Below are positions 53,705 through 64,000 of a stretch of DNA of 64,000 bases, piece after piece. The notes beneath the pieces were generated by a model, which worked only from the letters and a program-made list of their open reading frames with translations, was not told where the DNA came from and searched no databases. Within the stretch, counting starts at the first letter, position 1. Each line of letters starts with the position of its first letter. The position numbers were made by a program, and so were the translations under genes. Source of the DNA: Faecalibacterium sp. An122 (lineage in GTDB: Bacteria > Bacillota > Clostridia > Oscillospirales > Ruminococcaceae); the NCBI RefSeq assembly GCF_002160895.1, contig NZ_NFLL01000003.1, positions 124,001 to 188,000 on the forward strand, read 5' to 3'.

Positions 53705-54361
53705 ATGAAACTCAAGAAGATTGTTTCTCTGGCACTGGCCGGCATCCTGGCCGTCAGCATGCTGACCGCTTGTGGCGACAAGGGCAGCTCTTCTAGCGAG
53801 GGCGAGACCGAAGTGGTTGCCACTGGTTACTCTGCTATGCTGGCTAAAGAGCTGAAGGATACTGCTGCCAAGAGCTATGTTACCTTCCAGGATAATGCTG
53901 AGGATGAGGCTGCTCTGAAGAAGATGCTGGGTGGCTATCCCAACAAAGAGCTTATTGCTGGCGGTCAGGGTGCTGGTCTGGGGTATTTTATTCAGAAGAG
54001 CACTTTGAGTGCTGTCAAAGACCTTGAGGATTACGCCAAGCTCGATGGTTATGTCGATAGCCTTACTTTTGACGCTAAAAAGGAAATGCTTGGCACCTGG
54101 AAGATTGGCCAGCTTTATATCGCAGACGGCACCGTCGATATGAACAGTGTTATCAAAAATGTTGCTTCTAAGATCGGTGACAGTAATCTGAAGACCCAGC
54201 TGGTTGAAAAGGGCACCGACGCAAACCAGGTTATCAGCGCTAAGTACAGCTACGTTGTCTCTGCTAGCGTTGTGAACGTGAAGGGCACCGAGGACCTGCA
54301 GAAGAATCAGTCCACCACTTACGTTCTGGTTACCATCACCCGCACTGGCGTGGCTGATTGA
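53705..54361 (+). CDS. Lipoprotein of unknown function with highly-expressed-type codon use
   Basis: A 218-residue lipoprotein: signal peptide M-K-L-K-K-I-V-S-L-A-L-A-G, lipobox L-T-A-C, short Ser/Gly linker, then a soluble domain of about 185 residues with no motif I recognise (G-A-G-L-G-Y-F-I-Q-K, M-L-G-T-W-K-I-G-Q-L). Codon use departs from all neighbours: GCT, GTT, GGT and ATT/ATC are frequent and G+C at third positions is lower. With AGGAGG and a near-consensus promoter, this suggests very high expression, or acquisition from elsewhere. The next transcribed element is a probable structured RNA. Confidence 0.85.
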   Translation: MKLKKIVSLALAGILAVSMLTACGDKGSSSSEGETEVVATGYSAMLAKELKDTAAKSYVTFQDNAEDEAALKKMLGGYPNKELIAGGQGAGLGYFIQKSTLSAVKDLEDYAKLDGYVDSLTFDAKKEMLGTWKIGQLYIADGTVDMNSVIKNVASKIGDSNLKTQLVEKGTDANQVISAKYSYVVSASVVNVKGTEDLQKNQSTTYVLVTITRTGVAD

Positions 54362-54410
54362 TTTTTCGTTTACTTATGACAGCCCCGGCAGCACCATGGC
54401 CGGGAGCTGA

Positions 54411-54607
54411 TATAAGGGGCCTTTGAACAAGAGACCGTTCAAAGGTTCGGGTAAATAACCCATCCGATGTGGCGACAAAGGGGAATAATTAACCACTATT
54501 CCTTCTGTTGTTGATCGCACCAAAACAAAAGAACTTTTGCGTCACGAAAGATAGGGTCCCTCTGCGAGGGCTGGCTCTTACGAGCTGGCCCTCGCATTGT
54601 TTGTTTT
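54411..54607 (+). ncRNA. Candidate structured non-coding RNA
   Basis: No coding frame with a ribosome site is present, but the segment folds throughout. Hairpins: CCTTTGAAC/GTTCAAAGG (54420-54445); GGGT/ACCC with an outer TCGG/CCGA (54447-54467); GTGGCGA/TCGCAC enclosing GGAATA/TATTCC (about 54469-54520); CAAAAG/CTTTTG (54526-54539); and an intrinsic terminator TGCGAGGGC/GCCCTCGCA (54563-54596) then TTGTTTGTTTT. A TATAAG at 54411 may be a -10, or it may be processed from the lipoprotein mRNA. I cannot assign a family; raiA-type RNA is one idea to test. Confidence 0.55.
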
Positions 54608-54770
54608 AAGGGAAATGCTTGGAATCGAGAATGTACCCTATGTCCAGAGCCCCGCCGGGGCGGCGGCGCAGCCGCGGGGGAAGAGAAAATCCCCGTTTCC
54701 CTTTGCGGGAACGAGGATTTGTGATCTTATAGGAGCTTTTCAGTGCGTTAGAAAATGGAGTTGTGCCGGA
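54608..54770. other. Non-coding stretch with a minus-strand terminator hairpin
   Basis: Between the structured RNA and repeat copy A, the only clear signal is a hairpin AAATCC...GGATTT (about 54685-54718) which on the minus strand is followed by TCTC rather than a clean T run. A similar hairpin occurs near 62353-62395 ahead of repeat copy B, there with TTTTTT on the minus strand. Confidence 0.4.
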
Positions 54771-55013
54771 CCTTGTATCGTACTCGGCCGCAGGCCGGGA
54801 GCCTCATAAAGAGGCTGGAACTTTGCCGCCGGCTGGGCCTTGTGAGGATTACAGCAGTCGGCGGTACCAGATGAAGCCCTCTTGCGCTTAACCAATTTTC
54901 TCTGCGGGCATGAATGCCCTTGTGAAAATTGGAGCGCTGCGCCAGCGGCGGCTCCCTGTTTCATCCACTGGATGCGGTCGCCGCCGCTGCCAAGCTTTTT
55001 CTCGAAAAAGCGG
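54771..55013 (-). repeat. Structured 3'-end repeat, copy A (after the flavin reductase gene)
   Basis: A non-coding element of about 240 bases directly after the minus-strand gene ending at 55028. It shares a 58-base core (54934-54991) with copy B (62704-62761), 53 of 58 identical. Core pairs: 54944-54951 with 54981-54988, and CATCC (54962-54966) with GGATG (54970-54974). A flanking hairpin CCAATTTTC/GAAAATTGG (54892-54932) occupies the place of a different-sequence hairpin in copy B. GTACC and CCTCTTGCGCTTA are also shared. See copy B. Confidence 0.75.
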
Positions 55014-55027
55014 GAAAAAGCGGGAGG

Positions 55028-55612
55028 TTAACGGCGTTTTTTGGAGGTGGATTTTTTGCGGACCGAGTAGCCGAAGGTTCCCAGACGGCGGCCCAGGGCG
55101 TGGTATTCGCCGTGGCTGTAGGCAATGAGCCGGGCTTTGTCCAGATGGAGCTTGCCCTCGCTGTCCAGAAGATCCTCGTCCACACAACAGCCGACCACTT
55201 CGGCCAGGAACATGTCGTGGCTGCCCAGGGGAATGACCTGGGTGACCCGGCACTCCAGATTGACCGGGCTCTCCTCCAGAATGGGACAGTCAGGCAGGGC
55301 GGAGCCCGGCGCGGCATGAAGCCCCATGGCCTGGAACTTGTCCACGTCCCGGCCGCTCTTGACTCCGCACCAGTCCACCGCCCGGACCAGGGCCTCGGTG
55401 GGGAGATTGATGGCAAACTTTCCGCTCTCTTTGATCAGATTGTAGCTGTAGCGCTCGGGCCGGATGCTGATGGACACCATGGAAGGCTTGGTGCAGATGG
55501 TGCCGGCCCAGCCGATGGTGATGAGGTTGGGCTTTTCCAGACTGCCGCAGGAGACAAGGACCGGCGGCACCGGGCTCAAAAGGGTGGAACCTCTCCAGTT
55601 CTGTTTGCTCAT
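55028..55612 (-). CDS. Flavin reductase family (FMN-binding split barrel) protein
   Basis: A 194-residue protein of the flavin reductase/DIM6-NTAB group: N-L-I-T-I-G-W-A-G-T-I-C-T-K-P at the FMN site, S-I-R-P-E-R-Y-S-Y-N-L-I, and S-H-D-M-F-L-A-E-V. These bind FMN in a split barrel and often serve as flavodoxin-like or reductase components; the last 20 residues are strongly basic. The ATG overlaps the stop of the glycosyltransferase gene by four bases. Third gene of the crp-glycosyltransferase unit. Confidence 0.88.
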   Translation of the reverse strand: MSKQNWRGSTLLSPVPPVLVSCGSLEKPNLITIGWAGTICTKPSMVSISIRPERYSYNLIKESGKFAINLPTEALVRAVDWCGVKSGRDVDKFQAMGLHAAPGSALPDCPILEESPVNLECRVTQVIPLGSHDMFLAEVVGCCVDEDLLDSEGKLHLDKARLIAYSHGEYHALGRRLGTFGYSVRKKSTSKKRR

Positions 55613-56586
55613 CCGTGATACTTCCTTTCGTAGGGCTCCCAGGTCCGCTCGCTGATGATGTAGCGGGGCCGGGCTTTGGTTTCCATATAAATCTTGCCGA
55701 TGTATTCCCCGATGACGCCCAGACAGATCAGCTGAATGCCGCCCATCAGACAGACAATGCAGACGGTGCTGGCCCAGCCTGCCACGGTGCTGCCCATCAG
55801 CCCCATCACCACGGCCCAGATCACCCCGATGAAGCTGACAATGCTGAACAGCATTCCCGCGCCGGTGATCAGCCGGATGGGCTTGTTGGACAGGCTGGTG
55901 ATGCCGTCAAAGGCAAGACTCAGCATTTTGGACAGGGGATAGTGGCTTTCGCCCGCCAGACGCTCGTGGCGCTCGTAGGCCACGGTGGTGCTGGGAAAGC
56001 CCACCAGAGGCACCATGCCCCGCAGGAAAATATTCACCTCGTGGTAGTCGGCAAAGCTCTCCAGCACCCGGGCGCTGATGAGCCGATAGTCGGCATGGTT
56101 AAAGACAATGTCCGCCCCCAGCAGGTTCATCAGGTGATAGAACCCCTCAGCGGTGAACCGCTTGAAAAAGGTGTCGGTGTCCCGGCGGCTCCGCACGCCG
56201 TACACCACCTCGGCCCCGTCCAGGTACTGTTGCACCATCTCGTCCATGGCGTTGATGTCGTCCTGGCCGTCGCAGTCGATGGAAATGGTGATGTCGCACT
56301 TGTCCCGGGCCTCCATCAGGCCCGCCAGGACCGCGTTCTGATGGCCCCGGTTGCGGCTCTGGCTGATGCCGATGAAATGCTCGTCCTGCCGGGCAAACTG
56401 GCAGATCAGCTCCCAGGTGCGGTCCCGGGACCCGTCGTTCACAAAACAGACCCGGCTGCGGTCGCTGATGAGGCCCGCCCCGGCCAGGTCCAGCACCTTC
56501 TGCAAAAACTGGGGCGCCGTGATGGGCAGCACTTCTTCTTCGTTGTAGCAGGGGATGATGATCCAGAGAATCGGTTTTCCGCTCAT
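55609..56586 (-). CDS. Family 2 glycosyltransferase with two C-terminal membrane segments
   Basis: A 325-residue GT2 enzyme of the dolichol-phosphate-mannose-synthase/GtrB type: I-I-I-P-C-Y-N-E-E-E near the start, F-V-N-D-G-S-R-D, the D-C-D-G-Q-D metal motif, and Q-x-x-x-R motifs later. Two TMs lie at about 232-290. Such enzymes move a sugar to undecaprenyl phosphate for envelope decoration. The ATG at 56586 follows AAAGGAG; the longer open frame upstream overlaps the regulator gene. It follows that gene by 22 bases. Confidence 0.9.
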   Translation of the reverse strand: MSGKPILWIIIPCYNEEEVLPITAPQFLQKVLDLAGAGLISDRSRVCFVNDGSRDRTWELICQFARQDEHFIGISQSRNRGHQNAVLAGLMEARDKCDITISIDCDGQDDINAMDEMVQQYLDGAEVVYGVRSRRDTDTFFKRFTAEGFYHLMNLLGADIVFNHADYRLISARVLESFADYHEVNIFLRGMVPLVGFPSTTVAYERHERLAGESHYPLSKMLSLAFDGITSLSNKPIRLITGAGMLFSIVSFIGVIWAVVMGLMGSTVAGWASTVCIVCLMGGIQLICLGVIGEYIGKIYMETKARPRYIISERTWEPYERKYHG

Positions 56587-56608
56587 GATGAGAAGCTCCT
56601 TTGGCGTT

Positions 56609-57289
56609 TTATTGGGACAGCCTGCGCAGGGCGTCGGGGTCCCGCAATTTAAAGCTGCTGCGGTAGGTGTCCAGCAGACCCTCCCGCTGCATCCGGCCCA
56701 GCTCCCGGCTGAGGGCGCTGCGGTCACAGTTGAGATAATCGGCCAGCTGGGCCCGGGTAAAGGGAATGCGGAAGGTCAGCTGCCCGGCCCGGTCGGCCTC
56801 GCTGAGCAGATAGGCGGACACCTTGGCCCGCAGACTGCGCAGAAGCAGCAGATCCACCCGCCGCGCCAGCAGAAAATATTTGTCGCTGATGGTGCGCACC
56901 AGATTTTGAAGCACCTGCTGCCCGGCGGCGGTGCCGTCGGGGCAGAGAAGCCGCTCGTAGGGGATCAGCAGGACTTCGCAGGGGGTGACGGCGGTGACGG
57001 TCACCGGGCTGTACAGGCTGGAGCCCCCCAGCACGTCTCCGAAGATGCCTCCGGGCCCCATCCGGGTGATGGGCAGGGGGCTGCCGTCGGGAGCCCGGCG
57101 GACCGCCTCGATCCGGCCCGACAGGATGACCCCCACGCTGTGGCTGGGAGCTCCTGCCTGAACCAGTGCCGCGCCCCGGTTGTAGCTGCGGCGGGCGGCG
57201 CCGATCCGGGCCAGAAGGCCGGTCAGATCCTCCTCGCTCAGACCGCTGAACAGGGCGGTGGATTGTAAGAGTGTAACGTCGTTTTGCAT
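56609..57289 (-). CDS. Crp/Fnr family transcriptional regulator
   Basis: A 226-residue regulator. The N-terminal cyclic-nucleotide-type domain has V-G-V-I-L-S-G-R-I-E-A-V and G-G-I-F-G-D-V. The C-terminal winged helix has T-R-A-Q-L-A-D-Y-L-N-C-D-R-S-A-L-S-R-E-L. It lacks Fnr-type N-terminal cysteines, so oxygen sensing by an Fe-S cluster is unlikely. The ATG at 57289 is the natural start; a much longer open frame runs through the divergent region and neighbouring gene and is an artefact. A TTGC-ATAT-GCAA palindrome in the divergent promoter (57420) is its likely operator. Confidence 0.9.
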   Translation of the reverse strand: MQNDVTLLQSTALFSGLSEEDLTGLLARIGAARRSYNRGAALVQAGAPSHSVGVILSGRIEAVRRAPDGSPLPITRMGPGGIFGDVLGGSSLYSPVTVTAVTPCEVLLIPYERLLCPDGTAAGQQVLQNLVRTISDKYFLLARRVDLLLLRSLRAKVSAYLLSEADRAGQLTFRIPFTRAQLADYLNCDRSALSRELGRMQREGLLDTYRSSFKLRDPDALRRLSQ

Positions 57290-57419
57290 GAATTGTTTCC
57301 GATGGCGCGGCTGGCCCGGGCGGGCTAGAGCGCCGGCAATGATGGTGTGTTCCAGGGGCCTGCGGATCGGAGAGGGTGCGGGGCAGCCGGGCCCCGCCGC
57401 CGGGACCGGCAGGCGTTCT

Positions 57420-57477
57420 GTTGCATATGCAACGGTATTTTCCTTTTCATTATAGTAGAATGATGCCTGCAAAGCAA
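57420..57477. promoter_or_regulatory. Divergent promoters with a Crp/Fnr-type palindrome
   Basis: GTTGCATATGCAAC (57420-57433) is a perfect 14-base palindrome of TTGC-N4-GCAA type. Rightward: TATAGT (57451-57456) with its -35 position inside the palindrome. Leftward (regulator): TTGCTT (57472-57477), 17 bases, TATAAT (57449-57454), with the palindrome just after the start site. Binding would affect both genes. Confidence 0.65.
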
Positions 57478-57535
57478 ATGGTTTTGTGCAATTTTTGGAA
57501 ATTGTAAAAATTGGAAAGTGAGAAGGAACGAAACA

Positions 57536-58609
57536 ATGAAGAAATGGATTTCTCTGCTGCTCTCGGCAGCCATGCTTTTGTCCCTGGCAGCCTGCGGGAG
57601 CTCGGCCTCCGGCAGCACGGCGGCTTCCAGCGAAGCAGCCTCCAGCCAGGCGGCCTCCAGTGAGGCCGCATCTTCGGCCGCATCCTCGGAAGAGGCCGCC
57701 GAACCCCTGTCCACCACCGACCCTGTTCGGATTGCCGGCCTGAAGGGCCCCACCACCATGGGCCTGGTCAACCTGCTGCCCATGCAGGAGGAGGGCACCG
57801 CATCCCTCAGCTATGACCTGCAGCTCTATGGCGCTGCCGACGAGATTGTCCCCCTGCTGACCAAGGGCGAGCTGGACATGGCCGCGATTCCGGCCAACCT
57901 GGCCGCCACCCTCTACCAGAAAACCCAGGGCGGCATCCAGGTGATGGCCGTCAACACCCTGGGCGTCCTGTATGTGGTGGAGAAGGGTGACACCGTCCAG
58001 TCGGTGGCCGACCTGAAGGGCCGCACCATCCTGTCCACCGGCAAGGGCACCACCCCCGAGTACGTCCTGCGCTACATTCTGGAGCAGAACGGCATTGATC
58101 CCGACCAGGATGTGACCATTGAGTTCTACAGCGAGGCCACCGAGGTCACCGCCCAGATGGCGGTGGCAGAGGACGCCATCGCGGTGCTGCCCCAGCCCTA
58201 TGTGACCTCCGCCTCCATGCAGGATGACACCCTGCGGGTGGCTCTGGATCTGACCGAGGAGTGGGACAAGATCTGCGACACCCAGCTGATCACCGGCGTG
58301 ACGGTGGTCCGCACCGAGTACGCCCAGGAGCACCCCGACGTGGTGGCCGCTTTCCTGGAGGACTACACCGCCAGCGTGGACGCCGCCAACAATGACCTGG
58401 ACGGCACCGCTGCCCTCTGCGAGGAGCAGGGCGTGGTGGCCAAGGCAGCCATCGCCAAGGCAGCTCTGCCCAACTGCAACATCGTCTGCACCACCGGCGA
58501 GGATATGAAGGCCGACGTGGCAGGTTATCTGCAGGTTCTGTATGATGCCGACCCCGCCGCTGTGGGCGGCTCGATGCCGGACGACGGCTTCTACTGGCTG
58601 GGCGAATGA
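57536..58609 (+). CDS. ABC transporter substrate-binding lipoprotein (NitT/TauT/SsuA type)
   Basis: A 357-residue lipoprotein: signal peptide, lipobox L-A-A-C, a Ser/Ala/Glu linker of about 35 residues, then an NMT1/SsuA-like fold (V-R-I-A-G-L-K-G-P-T-T-M-G, D-L-K-G-R-T-I-L-S-T-G-K-G-T-T-P-E-Y). The family binds sulfonates, nitrate, bicarbonate or thiamine precursors; which applies here is open. The ATG at 57536 follows AGAAGGA. A hairpin after the gene (58648) probably lowers expression of the permease and ATPase. Confidence 0.87.
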   Translation: MKKWISLLLSAAMLLSLAACGSSASGSTAASSEAASSQAASSEAASSAASSEEAAEPLSTTDPVRIAGLKGPTTMGLVNLLPMQEEGTASLSYDLQLYGAADEIVPLLTKGELDMAAIPANLAATLYQKTQGGIQVMAVNTLGVLYVVEKGDTVQSVADLKGRTILSTGKGTTPEYVLRYILEQNGIDPDQDVTIEFYSEATEVTAQMAVAEDAIAVLPQPYVTSASMQDDTLRVALDLTEEWDKICDTQLITGVTVVRTEYAQEHPDVVAAFLEDYTASVDAANNDLDGTAALCEEQGVVAKAAIAKAALPNCNIVCTTGEDMKADVAGYLQVLYDADPAAVGGSMPDDGFYWLGE

Positions 58610-58647
58610 GAAGGCCCCGGCCCGCTCAAAAATCACCCGAAAACGGA

Positions 58648-58677
58648 AAAGGGGCGCCCCTTGCGGGGCGTCCCTTT
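58648..58677 (+). terminator. Attenuating hairpin between binding protein and permease genes
   Basis: AAAGGGGCGCCCC and GGGGCGTCCCTTT pair around TTGC and are followed by a short T run. It resembles the hairpin between modA and modB. Confidence 0.75.
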
Positions 58678-58719
58678 TTGGTTTATACTTTTCTGGAACA
58701 AAGCAAAAGGAGGTGTGCT

Positions 58720-59487
58720 GTGAAATCCAAGAAAAAGTCCTGGCCCGCCCGTCTGGCGGCGGTGGCGTTCTGGCTGGCCCTGTGGCAATGGGCCGCCGTG
58801 GCCGTGGGTCAGGAGGTGTTTCTGGTGTCCCCCATCCGGGCGGCCGGGACCCTGCTGCAGCTGCTGCCCACCGGGGATTTCTGGGCCCGGGTGGCCTTTT
58901 CCAGCGGGCGGATTCTGCTGGGGTTTGGCCTGGGCGCGCTGTGCAGCGTGGCTCTGGCGGTGGGGGCACGGCTGTCCCGGACGGTGGAGCTGCTGCTGGA
59001 CCCGGTGATGCAGCTGGTGAAGGCCACGCCGGTGGCCAGCTTTGTGATTCTGGCCCTGGTATGGGTCCGCGGGAAGGATTTGAGCATCCTCATCAGCTTC
59101 CTGATGGCGGTGCCGGTGCTGTACAGCGCCGTCCGCACCGGCATCCAGAGCACCGATGTCCAGCTGCTGGAAATGGCCAGGGTGTTCCGCCTGCCGGCGG
59201 GACGGCGTCTGCGGGCCATCTGGCTGCCGGCAGTGCTGCCGGCCTTCCGGGAGGGGTGCCGCACCGCCCTGGGTCTGTGCTGGAAGAGCGGCGTGGCCGC
59301 CGAGGTCATCGGCCTGCCCGACGGAAGCATCGGCGACGCCCTCTACCGGGCCAAAATCACCCTCTCAACCGGGGACCTGTTTGCCTGGACCTTTGTCATC
59401 ATCTGCCTGTCCGCCCTGTTTGAGAGGGCCTTTCTGGCCCTGCTGGGGCTGGCGGTGCGGCGAGTCTGCGGGGAGGGAGAGCCATGA
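58720..59487 (+). CDS. ABC transporter permease (SsuC/TauC type)
   Basis: A 255-residue permease with six TMs and the E-M-A-R-V-F-R-L-P-A loop typical of nitrate/sulfonate permeases. The start is a GTG at 58720, seven bases after AAAGGAGG; the open frame upstream crosses the attenuator. The ATPase gene overlaps its end by four bases. Confidence 0.88.
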   Translation: MKSKKKSWPARLAAVAFWLALWQWAAVAVGQEVFLVSPIRAAGTLLQLLPTGDFWARVAFSSGRILLGFGLGALCSVALAVGARLSRTVELLLDPVMQLVKATPVASFVILALVWVRGKDLSILISFLMAVPVLYSAVRTGIQSTDVQLLEMARVFRLPAGRRLRAIWLPAVLPAFREGCRTALGLCWKSGVAAEVIGLPDGSIGDALYRAKITLSTGDLFAWTFVIICLSALFERAFLALLGLAVRRVCGEGEP

Positions 59488-60086
59488 CGCTGCAAGTGGA
59501 ACATCTGACCAAGCGCTTTGGGGAACACCTGCTGTTTGAGGATTTAACCTTCTCGGCGGCGGCCCCGGCGGTGCTGTGGGCTCCCAGCGGCTGGGGCAAG
59601 ACCACCCTGCTGCGGATTCTGCTGGGCCTGGACAAACCCGACAGCGGTTCGGTCGCCGGAGTGGGCCGGGCGGCGGCGGTCTTTCAGGAGGACCGGCTTT
59701 GTCCCCAGCTGTCGGCGGTGGACAATGTGCTGCTGGTCCTGCCCGACGGCAAAGCCTGCCGCTCCGCGGTGGAGGAAGACTTTGCCCTGCTGGGCATGAC
59801 CGGCGAGGCCCTGACCCTGCCGGCGGCCCGGCTGTCGGGCGGACAGAAGCGGCGGGCCGCCCTGCTGCGGGCGGTGTGGGCCAAAGCCGACACCCGCCTG
59901 CTGGACGAGCCCTTCACCGGTCTGGACCCTGTGTCCATGGAAAAAGCGGCGGCTCTGCTGAACCGCCGCTGTGCCGGAGGGCCTGTGCTGCTGGCCACCC
60001 ATGACCGGGCCGCCATTGAGGCCCTGGGCTGGCCGGTGCTCCGGCTGGATGAACTGAAAGGGGGGACCGGCCGTCCCCTGCCTTAA
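59484..60086 (+). CDS. ABC transporter ATP-binding protein (short SsuB/TauB type)
   Basis: A 200-residue ATPase, short for the family (usually 240-260) but complete: Walker A A-P-S-G-W-G-K-T-T, Q-loop F-Q-E, signature L-S-G-G-Q-K-R-R, Walker B T-R-L-L-D-E-P-F and the switch in A-T-H-D. It lacks the C-terminal extension. Its stop codon shares the palindrome TTAA (60083-60086) with the stop of the convergent hemW. Confidence 0.88.
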   Translation: MTLQVEHLTKRFGEHLLFEDLTFSAAAPAVLWAPSGWGKTTLLRILLGLDKPDSGSVAGVGRAAAVFQEDRLCPQLSAVDNVLLVLPDGKACRSAVEEDFALLGMTGEALTLPAARLSGGQKRRAALLRAVWAKADTRLLDEPFTGLDPVSMEKAAALLNRRCAGGPVLLATHDRAAIEALGWPVLRLDELKGGTGRPLP

Positions 60087-61156
60087 ATCAGTTCCTCCAA
60101 AATGCTGTTCTGTACGATCATCCCCAGAGGGGTGAGGGCGATGTGGTCCGAGGTCAGGGTCAGGTAACCGGCCCGGGCGCAGTGCTCCAGAAAGGCCTGC
60201 TGGTGGGCGGTAAATTCCGCCCCGCCCCGGCGGCGGTATTCGGCCAGATCCAGCCCGTCGGCCAGCCGCAGCTGGAGGATCAGGTAGTCCTCAGCCCCGC
60301 AGACCCCGTCGGGCACCGGGTCGGACCCGGCGATGAAAGCGGCGGTGTCGGGGGGATAATAAAACCGCTGGTTTCCCATGCAGCTGTGGGCGGCAGGGCC
60401 CAGACCCAGATAGTCCCCGCAGTCCCAGTAGATGCGGTTGTGCTGTCCTTCAAAGCCGGGCCGGGCAAAGCTGGAAATCTCATACTGCCGGTAGCCGGCC
60501 CGGGCCAGCTGTTCCACCGCGTAGAGGTAAAAGTCGGCGGCCTGGTCGGGGGCGGGCAGACCCTCGGGGGGACGGCGGCCAAAGGCCGACCCCGGCTCGA
60601 TCTTGAGCAGGTAGGCGGAGATGTGCTGTGCGCCGCCTTCCTGGATCAGGGCCAGCGTCTGGTCGAACTCAGCCCGGGTGTAGTGGGGCAGGGCCAGCAT
60701 GATATCGCCGCTGATGTTGGCAAAACCGGCCTGCCGGGCGGCGGCAAAGGCGGCCCGGGCCTGGGCGGCATTGTGGGGCCGGCCCAGGGTCCGCAGCTGG
60801 GTGTCGCTGGCCGACTGAACCCCCAGCGACAGCCGGTTGACGCCGGCCTCCCGGAAGCCCCGGAGCTGTTCTTCATCCACGGTTTCGGGGTTGGCTTCCA
60901 GGGTGATTTCGGCCCCCGGCCGGGGCGCTGCCGCCTGAATCAGGCGCCGGGCCTGAGCCGGGGTGAGGAGGCTGGGGGTACCGCCTCCAAAGTAGACGGT
61001 ATCCGGCGCACCGGGCAGAGGATGCCGGCGCAATTCCCGCAGCAGGGCGTCCATGTAGGCGTCGGGGACGCCCCGCTGGCCCCCGGCGGCGTAGAAATCA
61101 CAGTACCGGCAGCGGGAAAAACAATAGGGAATATGGTAGTACAATCCGAAAGACAA
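60083..61156 (-). CDS. hemW: Radical SAM heme chaperone HemW
   Basis: A 357-residue HemW: the cluster motif C-F-S-R-C-R-Y-C-D-F (CxxxCxxC plus the Asp-Phe typical of HemW), F-G-G-G-T-P-S-L, S-L-G-V-Q-S, and H-N-x-x-Y-W with L-G-L-G-P-A-A-H-S. It is related to coproporphyrinogen dehydrogenase but lacks that enzyme's N-terminal tail; HemW inserts heme into target proteins. The start is probably the TTG at 61156; no ATG or GTG lies near it and an in-frame stop lies two codons before. Convergent with the ABC genes. Confidence 0.9.
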   Translation of the reverse strand: MSFGLYYHIPYCFSRCRYCDFYAAGGQRGVPDAYMDALLRELRRHPLPGAPDTVYFGGGTPSLLTPAQARRLIQAAAPRPGAEITLEANPETVDEEQLRGFREAGVNRLSLGVQSASDTQLRTLGRPHNAAQARAAFAAARQAGFANISGDIMLALPHYTRAEFDQTLALIQEGGAQHISAYLLKIEPGSAFGRRPPEGLPAPDQAADFYLYAVEQLARAGYRQYEISSFARPGFEGQHNRIYWDCGDYLGLGPAAHSCMGNQRFYYPPDTAAFIAGSDPVPDGVCGAEDYLILQLRLADGLDLAEYRRRGGAEFTAHQQAFLEHCARAGYLTLTSDHIALTPLGMIVQNSILEELI

Positions 61157-61172
61157 AATCAGTCACAGCCTT

Positions 61173-61201
61173 TTCATGAAACGTTCATTTCTCTATAGTA
61201 T
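61173..61201 (+). promoter_or_regulatory. Promoter of the Bax-inhibitor-1 gene
   Basis: TTCATG (61173-61178), 17 bases, TAGTAT (61196-61201), 67 bases before the start codon. The region also serves hemW on the other strand. Confidence 0.45.
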
Positions 61202-61267
61202 ACTGTAACCATCAGAGCGGGGCAAGAGCCCATGACACCCCCGCCCGTGGAAAAAGGAGTGTCTTAT

Positions 61268-61978
61268 ATGAATTATTACAACAACGATTACGACCGCGGC
61301 TACACCGAAGCTACGATGTCCGCTGCCGATTATATGGCCCGGACCTACCGCTGGATGGCCTGCGGCCTGGTGGTAACCTTTGCGGTGGCGTTCCTGACGG
61401 TCACGACGCCTCTGTTTTATCTGGTGAACTCGCTGTATCTGGTGCTGACCATTGCCGAGCTGGCTCTGGTGTTTACCCTGAGCGCACGGCTGCAGCGGAT
61501 GTCGGTGGGCGCCGCCCGGGGCGTGTTCCTGGCTTATTCGGCCCTCAACGGCATGGTCTTGAGCTATTATTTCCTGCTGTTCTCGGTGAACACCCTGGTG
61601 ATGGCCTTCCTGAGTACCGCCATTTATTTTGGGCTCATGGCGTTCTATGGCCACACCACCAACAAGGATCTGACCAGCTGGGGGCCCAAGCTGATGATGG
61701 GTCTGATGGCCATGATGGTTACCGGTCTGGTGGGCACCCTGTTCGGATTCGGCATTGGCGCATCCCTGCTGTACAGCGGCATCGGCCTGGTGGTCTTTAT
61801 GCTGCTGACCGCCTACGACACCCAGAAGCTGCATCAGATGTATGCCTACTATGCAGCCGACAGCGAACTGGCTGAGAAGGCCAGCGTCTACGGCGCTCTG
61901 ACCCTGTATCTGGACTTCATCAACATCTTCCTGTTTGTCCTGCGTCTGCTGGGCATGGGCAACCGCAGCCGCGACTAA
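61268..61978 (+). CDS. Bax inhibitor-1/YccA family membrane protein
   Basis: A 236-residue protein with seven TMs and the C-terminal T-A-Y-D-T-Q-K-L and L-Y-L-D-F-I-N-I-F motifs of the BI-1/YccA family (YetJ-like). Bacterial members act as pH-sensitive calcium leaks or modulate FtsH. The ATG at 61268 follows AAAAGGAG. Single gene; its stop is followed immediately by an 11-base hairpin (61979-62003). Confidence 0.92.
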   Translation: MNYYNNDYDRGYTEATMSAADYMARTYRWMACGLVVTFAVAFLTVTTPLFYLVNSLYLVLTIAELALVFTLSARLQRMSVGAARGVFLAYSALNGMVLSYYFLLFSVNTLVMAFLSTAIYFGLMAFYGHTTNKDLTSWGPKLMMGLMAMMVTGLVGTLFGFGIGASLLYSGIGLVVFMLLTAYDTQKLHQMYAYYAADSELAEKASVYGALTLYLDFINIFLFVLRLLGMGNRSRD

Positions 61979-62118
61979 CTTACTTTTTCGGAGAAAAAGT
62001 AAGCAAAAAGCTTTTCACTGTGTACCATTCAGTTTCCGGGTCTCCAGCAGTTCCGCGGGGCCTGCACGCTCCGGCTCGCTCGTTACGTTTGCGCCTGCGG
62101 CGCGGTACGATGCAGACG
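61979..62118 (+). repeat. Possible diverged 3'-end repeat, copy C
   Basis: Starts with the hairpin CTTACTTTTTC-GGA-GAAAAAGTAAG (61979-62003), close to the hairpin that begins copy B on the other strand. It ends with GGTACGATGCAGAC, the reverse complement of the start of copy B. The middle is diverged and shorter. It lies directly after a gene in the same relative orientation as copies A and B. Confidence 0.4.
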
Positions 62119-62177
62119 AAACCGGTTGACGGGCTCCACTGCGCAGGCGCTTGGATGCCAACTGAATGAAACACAGT
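62017..62177. repeat. Long-range inverted repeat downstream of the BI-1 gene
   Basis: ACTGTGTACCATTCAGTT (62017-62034) pairs with 62160-62177 at 16 of 18 positions; inside, GCGCCTGCG (62091-62099) pairs with CGCAGGCGC (62142-62150). It could be a folded RNA or a small non-autonomous element with terminal inverted repeats. Confidence 0.5.
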
Positions 62178-62203
62178 ACAGCGGTATCTCTCATAACAAA
62201 AAT

Positions 62204-62253
62204 ACTCCCTCATCCGCAAAGCCTGCCTGGGCTGAACGGATGAGGGAGTTTTT
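62204..62253. terminator. Terminator hairpin, probably bidirectional
   Basis: ACTCCCTCATCCG (62204-62216) pairs with CGGATGAGGGAGT (62237-62249), with TTTTT after it on the plus strand and an A-rich run before it. Confidence 0.75.
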
Positions 62254-62537
62254 CTTTTGCCAAAAAGAGGCGGAAAAGATGGCCGGGACGGCGAAAAGAA
62301 CACGCATTACAAGTGACTGAATGACTTTCAAATTCAAAAACAGGCAGCAAAAAATCCCCGCCCCGGAAAGGAGCGGAGATTCTGATTTTTATGGAACTTT
62401 TCTTGGGTGCTGAAATGGTCGCCCTCAACATATTGCCTAAGATCAGGCCGCAGATAGCTGTTCCAAAGGTGCCCAGAGCGCCTAACAAACCGGTGCACTG
62501 GAACTGTACAGGACAGTCAAAATCAGGTCATGCTGGA
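62254..62537. other. Non-coding stretch before repeat copy B
   Basis: No supported gene. A minus-strand terminator-like hairpin (AATCTCCGCTCC.../GGGGCGGGGATT, about 62353-62385, then TTTTTT) is the only clear signal. A minus-strand open frame (62210-62488) has a hydrophobic start but no ribosome site. Confidence 0.45.
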
Positions 62538-62790
62538 GTCTGCATCGTACCCGGGCACAGCCCGGACGTAACATGAGCGCGGCACAGTTTGCAACCCTCT
62601 GTCACTTTATAAAGAGTGGCTAGAGTGGATGGTACCCAGTGAGTCCTCTTGCGCTTAGCCGTTTTTTGCGGCGCGCCACGGCGGGGCGCTTGCAAAAAAC
62701 GGAGCGCGGCGCCAACGGCGGCTCCCTGTTTCGTCCACTGGACGCGGTCGCCGCCGTTGCCTTTGCCTACTTTTCTTCCAGAAAAGTAGG
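62538..62790 (-). repeat. Structured 3'-end repeat, copy B (after uxaC)
   Basis: Directly after the minus-strand uxaC gene. The 58-base core (62704-62761) differs from copy A at five positions. Four of these form two compensatory pairs: G-C to A-T in the outer stem (62714-62721 with 62751-62758) and A-T to G-C in the inner hairpin CGTCC/GGACG (62732-62744). The flanking hairpin CCGTTTTTTGC/GCAAAAAACGG (62659-62702) keeps its fold with different sequence. CCGGGC/GCCCGG near 62551 matches a hairpin in copy A. The last hairpin (about 62766-62790, TACTTTTC/GAAAAGTA) abuts the stop codon. Confidence 0.75.
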
Positions 62791-64000
62791 TTACAGGCAG
62801 AAGTAGCGCTTGGCGTTGTCGAAGCAGATGCCGCGGACGATCTTCTCCAGAGACTTCTCGTCGTTGGGATACTCGCCGTCCTCAACCCACTGGCCGATCA
62901 GGTTGCACATGATGCGGCGGAAGTAGTCGTGACGGGTGTAGCTCAGGAAGCTGCGGCTGTCGGTCAGCATGCCGACGAAGTTGCCCAGCAGGCCCAGGTT
63001 GGCCAGGGACTTCATCTGGTTCTCCATGCCCACCTTCTGGTCGCAGAACCACCAGGCGGAACCGGCCTGAATCTTGCCGGGGATCTCGTCGTCCTGGAAG
63101 CAGCCCAGAATGGTGCCGATCTGCTCGTTGTCCACCGGGTTCAGGCTGTAGATGATGGTCTTGGGGCACTCGGCGGTGTCGGTCAGAGCGCTCAGCAGAG
63201 CAGCAATGTTGCCGCCGCAGGTGTTCTGGTTGATCATGTCAAAGCCGGTGTCGGGTCCCAGCAGGGCGTTCATCTTGCGGTTGACGCCGCGCAGGCAGGA
63301 GTAGTGCAGCTGCATCACCACGTTGTGCTTGTGGTAGAGCTTGCCCATGTGGATCAGCAGGGCGGTCTGGTACTTCTCGGCCTCCTCCACGGTGACGGCT
63401 TCGCCGGCCATGGCTTTCTTGTAGATGGCGTCCACTTCCTCGATGGAAGCCTCACGGTAAGGCACGTAGTCCAGGCCGTGGTCCGCTGCGCGGCAGCCCA
63501 TCTTGACGAAGAACTCCAGCCGCTCGGTCAGAGCGTCCATGACGCAGTGGATGCAGGCCAGCTTCTCCTTGCCGACGCTGGCAGCCAGCTTGCCCATGTA
63601 CTCCACAAAGCCGGGCTTGTTGATGTTGACGGCCTTGTCGGGACGGAAGGAGGGAGCCACGGTGAACTTGATGGTGGGATCGTTCTTGATCTTCTCGTGC
63701 CACTCCAGGCTGTCGATGGGATCGTCGGTGGTGCCGATGAAGGCTACGTTGGACTGCTCGATCAGGCCGCGGACGGTCAGCTTGGGATCGTTCTGCAGCT
63801 TCTCGTTGCACAGGTTCCAGACTTCCTCGGCGGTGTCGCCGTTCAGGACGCCCTCATAGCCGAAGTATTTCCGCAGCTCCAGGTTGGTCCAGTGATACAT
63901 GGGGTTGCCGATGGCCATGGGCAGGGCCTCGGCGAACTTCTGGAAGCGCTCACGGTCCGACTTGGAACCGGTAATGTACTCCTCGGGCACGCCGTTGGAA
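62791..64000 (-). CDS. uxaC: Glucuronate isomerase UxaC (5' end outside the window)
   Basis: The visible 403 residues cover most of a uronate isomerase. The frame stays open to the window edge, reading S-N-G-V-P-E-E-Y-I-T-G, where complete UxaC proteins have about 70 more residues including the H-C-H-L metal motif. Other markers are G-N-P-M-Y-H-W-T-N-L-E-L-R, D-D-P, A-P-S-F-R-P-D-K, and T-D-S-R-S-F-L-S-Y-T-R-H-D-Y-F-R-R. It isomerises glucuronate to fructuronate or galacturonate to tagaturonate, a first step of pectin or host-glycan uronate use. A GTG at 63988-63990 is internal, not the start. Confidence 0.93.
   Translation of the reverse strand, partial: SNGVPEEYITGSKSDRERFQKFAEALPMAIGNPMYHWTNLELRKYFGYEGVLNGDTAEEVWNLCNEKLQNDPKLTVRGLIEQSNVAFIGTTDDPIDSLEWHEKIKNDPTIKFTVAPSFRPDKAVNINKPGFVEYMGKLAASVGKEKLACIHCVMDALTERLEFFVKMGCRAADHGLDYVPYREASIEEVDAIYKKAMAGEAVTVEEAEKYQTALLIHMGKLYHKHNVVMQLHYSCLRGVNRKMNALLGPDTGFDMINQNTCGGNIAALLSALTDTAECPKTIIYSLNPVDNEQIGTILGCFQDDEIPGKIQAGSAWWFCDQKVGMENQMKSLANLGLLGNFVGMLTDSRSFLSYTRHDYFRRIMCNLIGQWVEDGEYPNDEKSLEKIVRGICFDNAKRYFCL

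Follow-up and report, generated by a model that had tools for sequence, protein, structure and literature searches.

What kind of element is the repeat that stands directly behind two unrelated minus-strand genes, a flavin reductase gene and uxaC, in a stretch of 64,000 nucleotides (nt) from Faecalibacterium sp. An122 (contig NZ_NFLL01000003.1, positions 124,001 to 188,000; this whole stretch is termed the window, and copy coordinates are window positions)? The two copies, A and B, share a unit of about 115 nt, here named E, which folds into two hairpins and is dispersed through this genome and those of many relatives. With modest confidence, we regard E as the structured centre of a very small mobile or integrative element that is non-autonomous, occurs across the Clostridia and has been amplified at gene 3' ends in Faecalibacterium. 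A first-pass annotation of the two copies had offered a mobile 3' untranslated region (3'-UTR) element, an mRNA-stability module or a repetitive extragenic palindromic (REP)-like site as possible identities.

A two-hairpin structure with compensated base changes

The E unit of copy A lies at 54879..54992 on the minus strand, where the RNAalifold structure comprises stem a with an inner hairpin and then stem b, and that of copy B lies at 62646..62762 on the same strand. Covariance model R1, in which both copies are included, scores them at 132.3 bits (E=6.4e-24) and 133.1 bits (E=4.4e-24), respectively. The folded strand of copy A is the minus strand and thus has the same sense as the gene upstream. 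When folding was compared with 200 dinucleotide shuffles, z was -3.8 for copy A and -4.4 for the whole segment of copy B, and none of the 200 folded as well. The cores at 54931-54991 and 62701-62761 (61 bases) differ at exactly five sites. At four of these the changes compensate one another in two pairs, a G/C pair of the outer stem becoming A/T and an A/T pair of the CATCC/CGTCC inner hairpin becoming G/C. These differences, and a neighbouring hairpin that keeps its position and fold with a changed sequence, are as the first-pass annotation described them; the 58-base core that it delimited is indeed shared, but the unit is longer than this and contains two hairpins.

Covariation was evaluated in three alignments: A1, a sequence-only MAFFT alignment of 29 E copies that was not fitted to a model; A2, containing 59 sequences under 90% identity; and A3, an order-wide set of 83 matches (78 distinct) fitted to the model, with pair-type counts made on 69 sequences. 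The fold obtained from A1 consists of stem a, which encloses the inner hairpin, and stem b, which has a basal stem; 98% of its cells pair, both sides change in 18 of 35 pairs, and the covariation score is 0.338, compared with 0.131 for shuffled alignments and no more than 0.079 for slid versions. In A3, 93% of cells pair, both sides change in 31 of 35 pairs (650 cells), and the score of 0.584 compares with 0.150 when shuffled and at most 0.096 when slid, none of 500 shuffles reaching it. The shuffles leave relatedness unmodelled and A3 leans to its model; even so, three to five pair types occur at many stem positions (A2 and A3) and the unfitted A1 agrees. Selection on structure, which had been deduced from two copies and for which a covariance model and covariation test had been proposed as the check, is therefore strongly supported. 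Nor does anything in the analysis, which included no protein search of the segment, point to a decayed coding gene.

The conserved portions of E are the unpaired parts and the short pairs that flank them, and the stems vary freely in compensated pairs. The consensus is roughly GGGC - stem a - CGA(G/C)CGC - inner hairpin - GATnnAG(C/G)GAG - stem a' - GGCGC(A/C)GCGGTC - stem b - GGGCACCGCAAGAG, and tandem G-A mismatches are seen by eye in several stem a variants. This distribution of conserved positions bears on a reading without function, in which template-switch mutation or arm-to-arm conversion keeps the hairpin arms complementary and the repeats are junk copied by recombination. The arms are indeed mostly Watson-Crick paired, with few wobble intermediates, as such a process would leave them, but the well conserved positions include unpaired bases of the internal loops, and the architecture persists across many families, which makes this explanation very improbable.

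Copy number and taxonomic spread

The possibility that only two copies exist was dispelled by searching the genome and its relatives, as the first-pass annotation had advised. Copy B alone gave 75 matches at E<=10 in its own genome, some of them pieces of a single copy, and R1 gave 67 at E<=1. Alignment to the whole model was obtained for the 61 of these with E<=1.3e-5, several of which are nevertheless short or interrupted. Several copies are located at contig ends of this draft assembly. Matches to R1 are present in 29 of 31 genomes of the genus, with 0 to 85 in each at E<=1e-4, the E-richest being G023 (85), G021 (78), the genome under study (G000; 63), G010 (57) and G004 (51). In the family, R1 matched 16 of 148 genomes. 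A wider model, R2, matched 87 of 295 genomes (46 of 148 genera) in the order and 44 of 391 genomes (29 of 223 genera) in the class. E-values from both models are rough, owing to short calibrations; as an independent check, most of the order-wide loci share one context. In a scan with an exact pattern, 45 of 80 records among the matches listed were from Faecalibacterium, the others being scattered single matches in unrelated taxa or in Clostridia.

tRNA genes and other targets outside Faecalibacterium

The shared context is provided by tRNA genes. Outside Faecalibacterium, tRNA-derived sequence was detected in the flanks of 75 of 116 distinct copies, at 63 of 97 loci (blastn, E<=0.02), compared with 1 of 58 copies in the An122 genome and 16 of 300 random window positions, and a complete tRNA is present within 400 nt at 45 of 69 order-wide loci. 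Two layouts recur. In the first (28 of 116 copies) E directly adjoins the 5' part of a tRNA, which breaks off at position 18-26 in the D-arm region in 19 cases, at 37 in the anticodon loop in eight and at 63 in one; a second start of the tRNA, again from its first bases, follows just downstream in 16 of the 28 (21 of 116 overall). In the second (27 of 116) a tRNA and its terminator come first, E is next, and the 3' part of the tRNA follows.

The flanks also carry direct repeats. At a score of at least 20 these were found in 56 of 109 copies. No random position out of 300 had them, and among swapped flanks they occurred in 7 of 277, a figure explained by the many flanks that share tRNAs; at a score of at least 16 the corresponding figures were 63 of 109, 5 of 300 and 21 of 277. 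Tandem E arrays occur at several loci (e.g. L207, L217, L306, L312 and L335), and direct repeats above 80 nt at tandem loci probably represent array periods rather than target duplications.

Protein-coding genes are also targets. In three genera E lies over the guaA stop codon (GMP_synt_C, E<=4e-34), and in one case a start region of approximately 44 bp of parB is repeated on both sides of E, with a complete parB following (ParB domains). When open frames from 102 loci were clustered, the two largest of the 14 largest clusters appear to be frames over E and the tRNA themselves; the others include integrase (three loci), guaA (three loci), single-genus frames and one glycosidase-like frame. The guaA insertions suggested a guide taken from the target, since the stop codon lies in the outer 5' arm of stem a in three insertions; this idea was abandoned as identical stem a sequences occur at differing sites (L218, L221 and L319), so that the arms are not always target-derived.

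Several further features were observed at these loci. Small hairpins with variable stems, often with a GAA-type loop, flank E on one or both sides at tRNA loci (L206, L208, L209, L214, L217, L296, L299, L300 and others), and the full unit may therefore have four or more hairpins. In genome G089 (L202-L204 and L226-L229) several E units lie within a different dispersed repeat of the CCTCCCTTGTCAAAGGGAGG type. At L210 (positions 999-1174) two matches to Gut-1 RNA (RF01706; 59.9 and 44.6 bits, gathering score 50) closely follow an E unit and the 3' part of a tRNA-Asn. In the available part of PMC2864571, Gut-1 is known only from environmental sequences; at L210 it is in a genome assembly, beside E.

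Genomic position in Faecalibacterium

In the window, each E unit is part of a mosaic on the minus strand which, read from the stop codon, consists of an A/T-rich hairpin termed gamma, E, a module that is M1 in copy A and M2 in copy B, and a terminator-like hairpin for which the evidence is weak. The repeat does stand behind two unrelated genes, as had been claimed. Copy A follows the stop codon of the flavin reductase gene (55028..55612; PF01613, E=6.8e-32), and its gamma hairpin, of the GCTTTTTCGAGAAAAAGC type (54993..55013; sequence and hairpin finder), lies between this stop codon and E. Copy B follows uxaC (62791..63990; PF02614, E=4.5e-155), with the gamma hairpin CCTACTTTTCTGGAAGAAAAGTAGG (62766..62790; identified from sequence) abutting the stop codon. 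M1 (54771..54875) is a dispersed repeat bounded by GTAC motifs on the gene-distal side of E, and M2 (62538..62640) is a differing dispersed repeat in the equivalent position; positions 1-105 of copy A match other genome regions by blastn, and matches were likewise obtained with positions 1-104 of copy B. The two segments treated as one repeat in the first-pass annotation thus have E and gamma in common, but their upstream stretches are distinct repeat modules. Downstream on the transcript strand, a terminator-like hairpin with a T run is located at 62355..62369 behind copy B (one found against 0.9 expected from shuffles, which is weak alone), and a GC hairpin with a T run at 54688..54720 behind copy A, recognised by eye, has an imperfect stem and was not reported by the scanner.

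Elsewhere in this genome M1, M2, E and gamma occur in varying combinations (blastn against fetched regions; also at uxaC). Gamma-like hairpins are present in other E copies and also occur in the absence of E behind uxaC in other species. More dispersed modules are visible in intergenic regions of G000 (e.g. C40:3500-5300 and C25:20450-21350), namely GC-rich terminators whose neighbourhood is repeated and, beside several E units, a CCCTGGTCGTTAGGGAGGGTAGGGAGTCC stretch.

The 3' end of uxaC was compared in 26 species across a maximum of 420 nt, cut short by a contig end in G022 and G010, and E is found there in two, An122 and G023. In G022, the closest by UxaC identity (97%), uxaC is followed by gamma and then M1, and E is absent; only a gamma-type hairpin is present in G010, G024 and G006, and the remaining species have what appears by eye to be a plain terminator. 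Among 61 copies in the An122 genome, 22 lie between convergent genes, 17 between tandem genes in the co-directional sense, 11 between tandem genes in antisense and two between divergent genes, with one neighbour unknown for nine (simple codon-model gene calls, for which no expectation was computed). These counts indicate that few copies occupy divergent promoter regions and that the sense orientation is not required. They lend little support to an mRNA-stability module, as does the finding that 24 of the 26 species show no E behind uxaC. The 3'-UTR placement of E, which has probably been amplified at gene 3' ends in Faecalibacterium, is characteristic of this genus. The notion of a mobile 3'-UTR element is accordingly close to the truth for Faecalibacterium, but elsewhere in the order E is mostly in or beside tRNA genes, often with direct repeats; it is partly supported, in that the structure is under constraint and mobile, but not a 3'-UTR module as such.

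Insertion of E into E is also observed: at C40, C8 and C2 one unit is split by another E-type unit, and at C40 and C8 the host sequence flanking the nested unit is TTGGC / GC(C/T)GCGC, with no obvious duplication seen. Such nested insertion without obvious target duplication, insertion after GG/GGC and the hairpins themselves would suit a miniature inverted-repeat transposable element (MITE) or REP-like element moved by a Y1 transposase (IS200/IS605, or the REP-associated tyrosine transposase, RAYT), and REP sequences and bacterial interspersed mosaic elements (BIMEs) with RAYT resemble E as dispersed paired hairpins mostly near gene 3' ends. E differs from these in being longer and in having conserved internal loops, its ends (GGGC ... 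CAAGAGG) are by eye not mutual inverted repeats as in a MITE, and its direct repeats range between 20 and 129 nt; Y1 transposition would not be expected to leave long ones. Y1_Tnp matches were obtained in 11 of 31 genus genomes. Among the five E-richest, An122 alone has one, a fragment with an internal stop, and the other four are 80-92% complete, so that a gene may have been missed. The fragment is at L051 (G000:C10:3564-3761), and the stretch fetched around it contains no E match. A REP/RAYT driver was thus sought in this genome and the genus and set aside; a Y1 or RAYT driver of E is unlikely, the REP-like site is disfavoured, and we give the Y1-moved MITE or REP-like element as a whole very little credence.

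RNA or DNA

Selection on one strand would be expected to leave more G-U wobble pairs than A-C mismatches, and on the modelled strand wobbles do prevail, by 33 to 12 in A2 (59 sequences) and by 55 to 15 in A3 (69 sequences). This excess points to a single folded strand. However, wobbles make up 1.7-2.5% of the standard pairs in E, in comparison with 5.9% in tRNA stems from the matching loci, where the ratio is 40 to 2 (40 of 47 tRNAs; seven with fewer than 14 of 17 pairs formed were dropped), and 11 of the 33 wobbles in A2 come from a single pair column. As the strand bias is far below that of tRNAs, we do not call E an RNA; judged from sequence, a folded single strand of DNA would fit as well.

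It is possible, though unlikely, that E is an RNA-level element, i.e. a structured non-coding RNA or 3'-UTR module that happens to be mobile, with a fold that acts in the transcript, for example by binding a protein or protecting the 3' end. The wobble excess accords with this, nine of the 61 copies in An122, each with a gamma hairpin, are situated 24-41 nt past the end of a predicted gene that runs in the same direction, and transcription from a tRNA promoter is possible in the 28 of 116 copies where the 5' tRNA part abuts E. The rarity of wobbles relative to tRNA stems and their concentration in one column argue to the contrary, as do the modest excess of co-directional over antisense copies between tandem genes and the absence of E behind uxaC in most species.

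The same combination of few wobble pairs and single-strand bias, together with variable stems, conserved unpaired bases, tandem arrays and direct repeats, recalls the attC sites of integrons, which likewise keep their structure as the stems vary and occur with small cassettes in arrays. By analogy, E might be a folded single-stranded recombinase substrate, the folded strand being recombined into double-stranded targets to yield small cassettes and tandem arrays. The ends of the E consensus do not, by eye, carry the R'/R'' boxes that attC has at the base of its folded hairpin, and cassette genes were not seen (an integron integrase was not looked for); we consider this alternative improbable.

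A candidate gene-less integrative element

The preferred reading, a non-autonomous integrative element, takes its proposed mechanism from the targets. In the available part of PMC4701971, streptococcal integrative and conjugative elements (ICEs) with tyrosine integrases are described at the 3' ends of tRNA genes and guaA, and some at 5' gene ends, with direct repeats of 12-54 bp. We infer a tyrosine-integrase mechanism for E because its targets and repeats match those of such site-specific integration. Units of very roughly 130-220 bp would integrate by site-specific recombination at the loops and ends of tRNA genes and at guaA, parB and similar gene ends, through a recombinase that would be encoded elsewhere, most likely a tyrosine integrase acting in trans. 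The interrupted gene would be restored by the duplicated piece of the target, and recognition by the machinery would act on the folded strand. The unit may have been amplified in Faecalibacterium along with other hairpin modules, the survivors accumulating behind stop codons, where insertion would be least harmful.

E resembles ICEs, integrative and mobilizable elements (IMEs) and prophages that use tyrosine integrases in its targets (tRNA genes, the guaA 3' end and a 5' gene end), direct repeats, gene restoration and tandem occupancy; insertion in tRNA genes or conserved gene ends with gene-restoring direct repeats was found in the set of copies from outside Faecalibacterium. It differs in that the unit is approximately 130-220 bp in length, gene-less and centred on a conserved two-hairpin structure, and in that the repeats exceed 100 nt at some loci. 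The unit of about 115 nt with its short neighbours has no room for an integrase gene of its own. Phage_integrase genes lie near E at two genome loci (L317 and L343) and on both sides of E in a virus-classified contig of 38 kb (L366), in which a second E is followed by matching tRNA 3'-end-like sequence.

Several observations weigh against an integrative element. An inverted tRNA piece lies just before E in the left flank of 22 of 116 copies, which simple integration does not explain, and 41 of 116 copies show no tRNA, so that other targets exist. The longest of the direct repeats scoring at least 20, which span 20 to 129 nt, are mostly tandem arrays or long duplications that are not typical of an integrase. 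Phage_integrase genes are to be expected at tRNA loci in any case, and no enzyme was identified: neither a Y1 nor an integrase gene could be linked to E as its partner (other transposase families were outside the search). Internal loops so conserved would require something that reads them. In Faecalibacterium, where all but one of the 58 An122 copies lack tRNA flanks, a like mechanism is assumed, the direct-repeat figures covering other genera only. Copies from related genomes are not independent. Finally, a scan of 2.9 million viral contigs for the exact E pattern gave only four stretches in three contigs; this strict pattern would miss most variants, and the result indicates that the searched form of E is not a common feature of viruses.

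More tentatively, E may represent a class-wide, undescribed gene-less integrative element in which the folded two-hairpin strand is recognised and adjoining target-derived pieces set the target, these being the direct tRNA 5' and 3' parts or, as a possible guide, the inverted tRNA piece of the 22 copies. One core would then have been retargeted to tRNAs (Ser, Met, Pro, Trp, Asn, Ala and Lys), guaA and parB, and to gene 3' ends in Faecalibacterium.

Relation to known families and significance

Searches of Rfam 15 did not identify E. At gathering thresholds the whole window gave only tRNA and Moco matches, at positions other than E, and the region 54300-62900 gave nothing over E at E<=5. In ten loci from other genera nothing covered E at E<=3 except a 5-nt overlap with a weak RNAI match in L210, where the Gut-1 matches are beside E and not on it. 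The Moco match in the window, to the Moco/tungsten riboswitch (RF01055; 24559-24709, minus strand), is barely above threshold at 37.2 bits (gathering score 36).

Our literature search found no description of such an element, although an earlier mention is possible in the motif tables of gut RNA catalogue supplements, which the search did not cover. An E-like motif could be among the thousands of predicted gut RNA motifs in the catalogues of candidate structured RNAs from gut metagenomes (PMC8040213 and PMC2864571); a tRNA-associated mobile motif was not found described in the available parts of these two papers, and may be present in their supplementary tables. In organisation there is a likeness to mosaic intergenic repeats such as the BOX elements of pneumococcus, which are also intergenic, present in many copies and composed of separate structured modules, as M1, M2, E and gamma are in their varying combinations. 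BOX is, to our knowledge, known from one lineage, whereas the E family is class-wide and has tRNA targets. E belongs with the small structured mobile repeats; its class-wide reach and tRNA-type targeting were not found described in the literature searched.

In practical terms, the E copies at contig ends may hinder assembly, and their presence or absence could mark strain variation. So conserved a structure, carried by roughly three of every ten genomes sampled in the order and lacking an Rfam 15 match, gives a new starting point in the search for a recombinase whose folded substrate is unusual or, alternatively, for an RNA that is widespread but uncharacterised. If the integrative reading is true, integration at tRNA genes can give rise to very small elements without genes, which afterwards reach the 3' ends of mRNAs.

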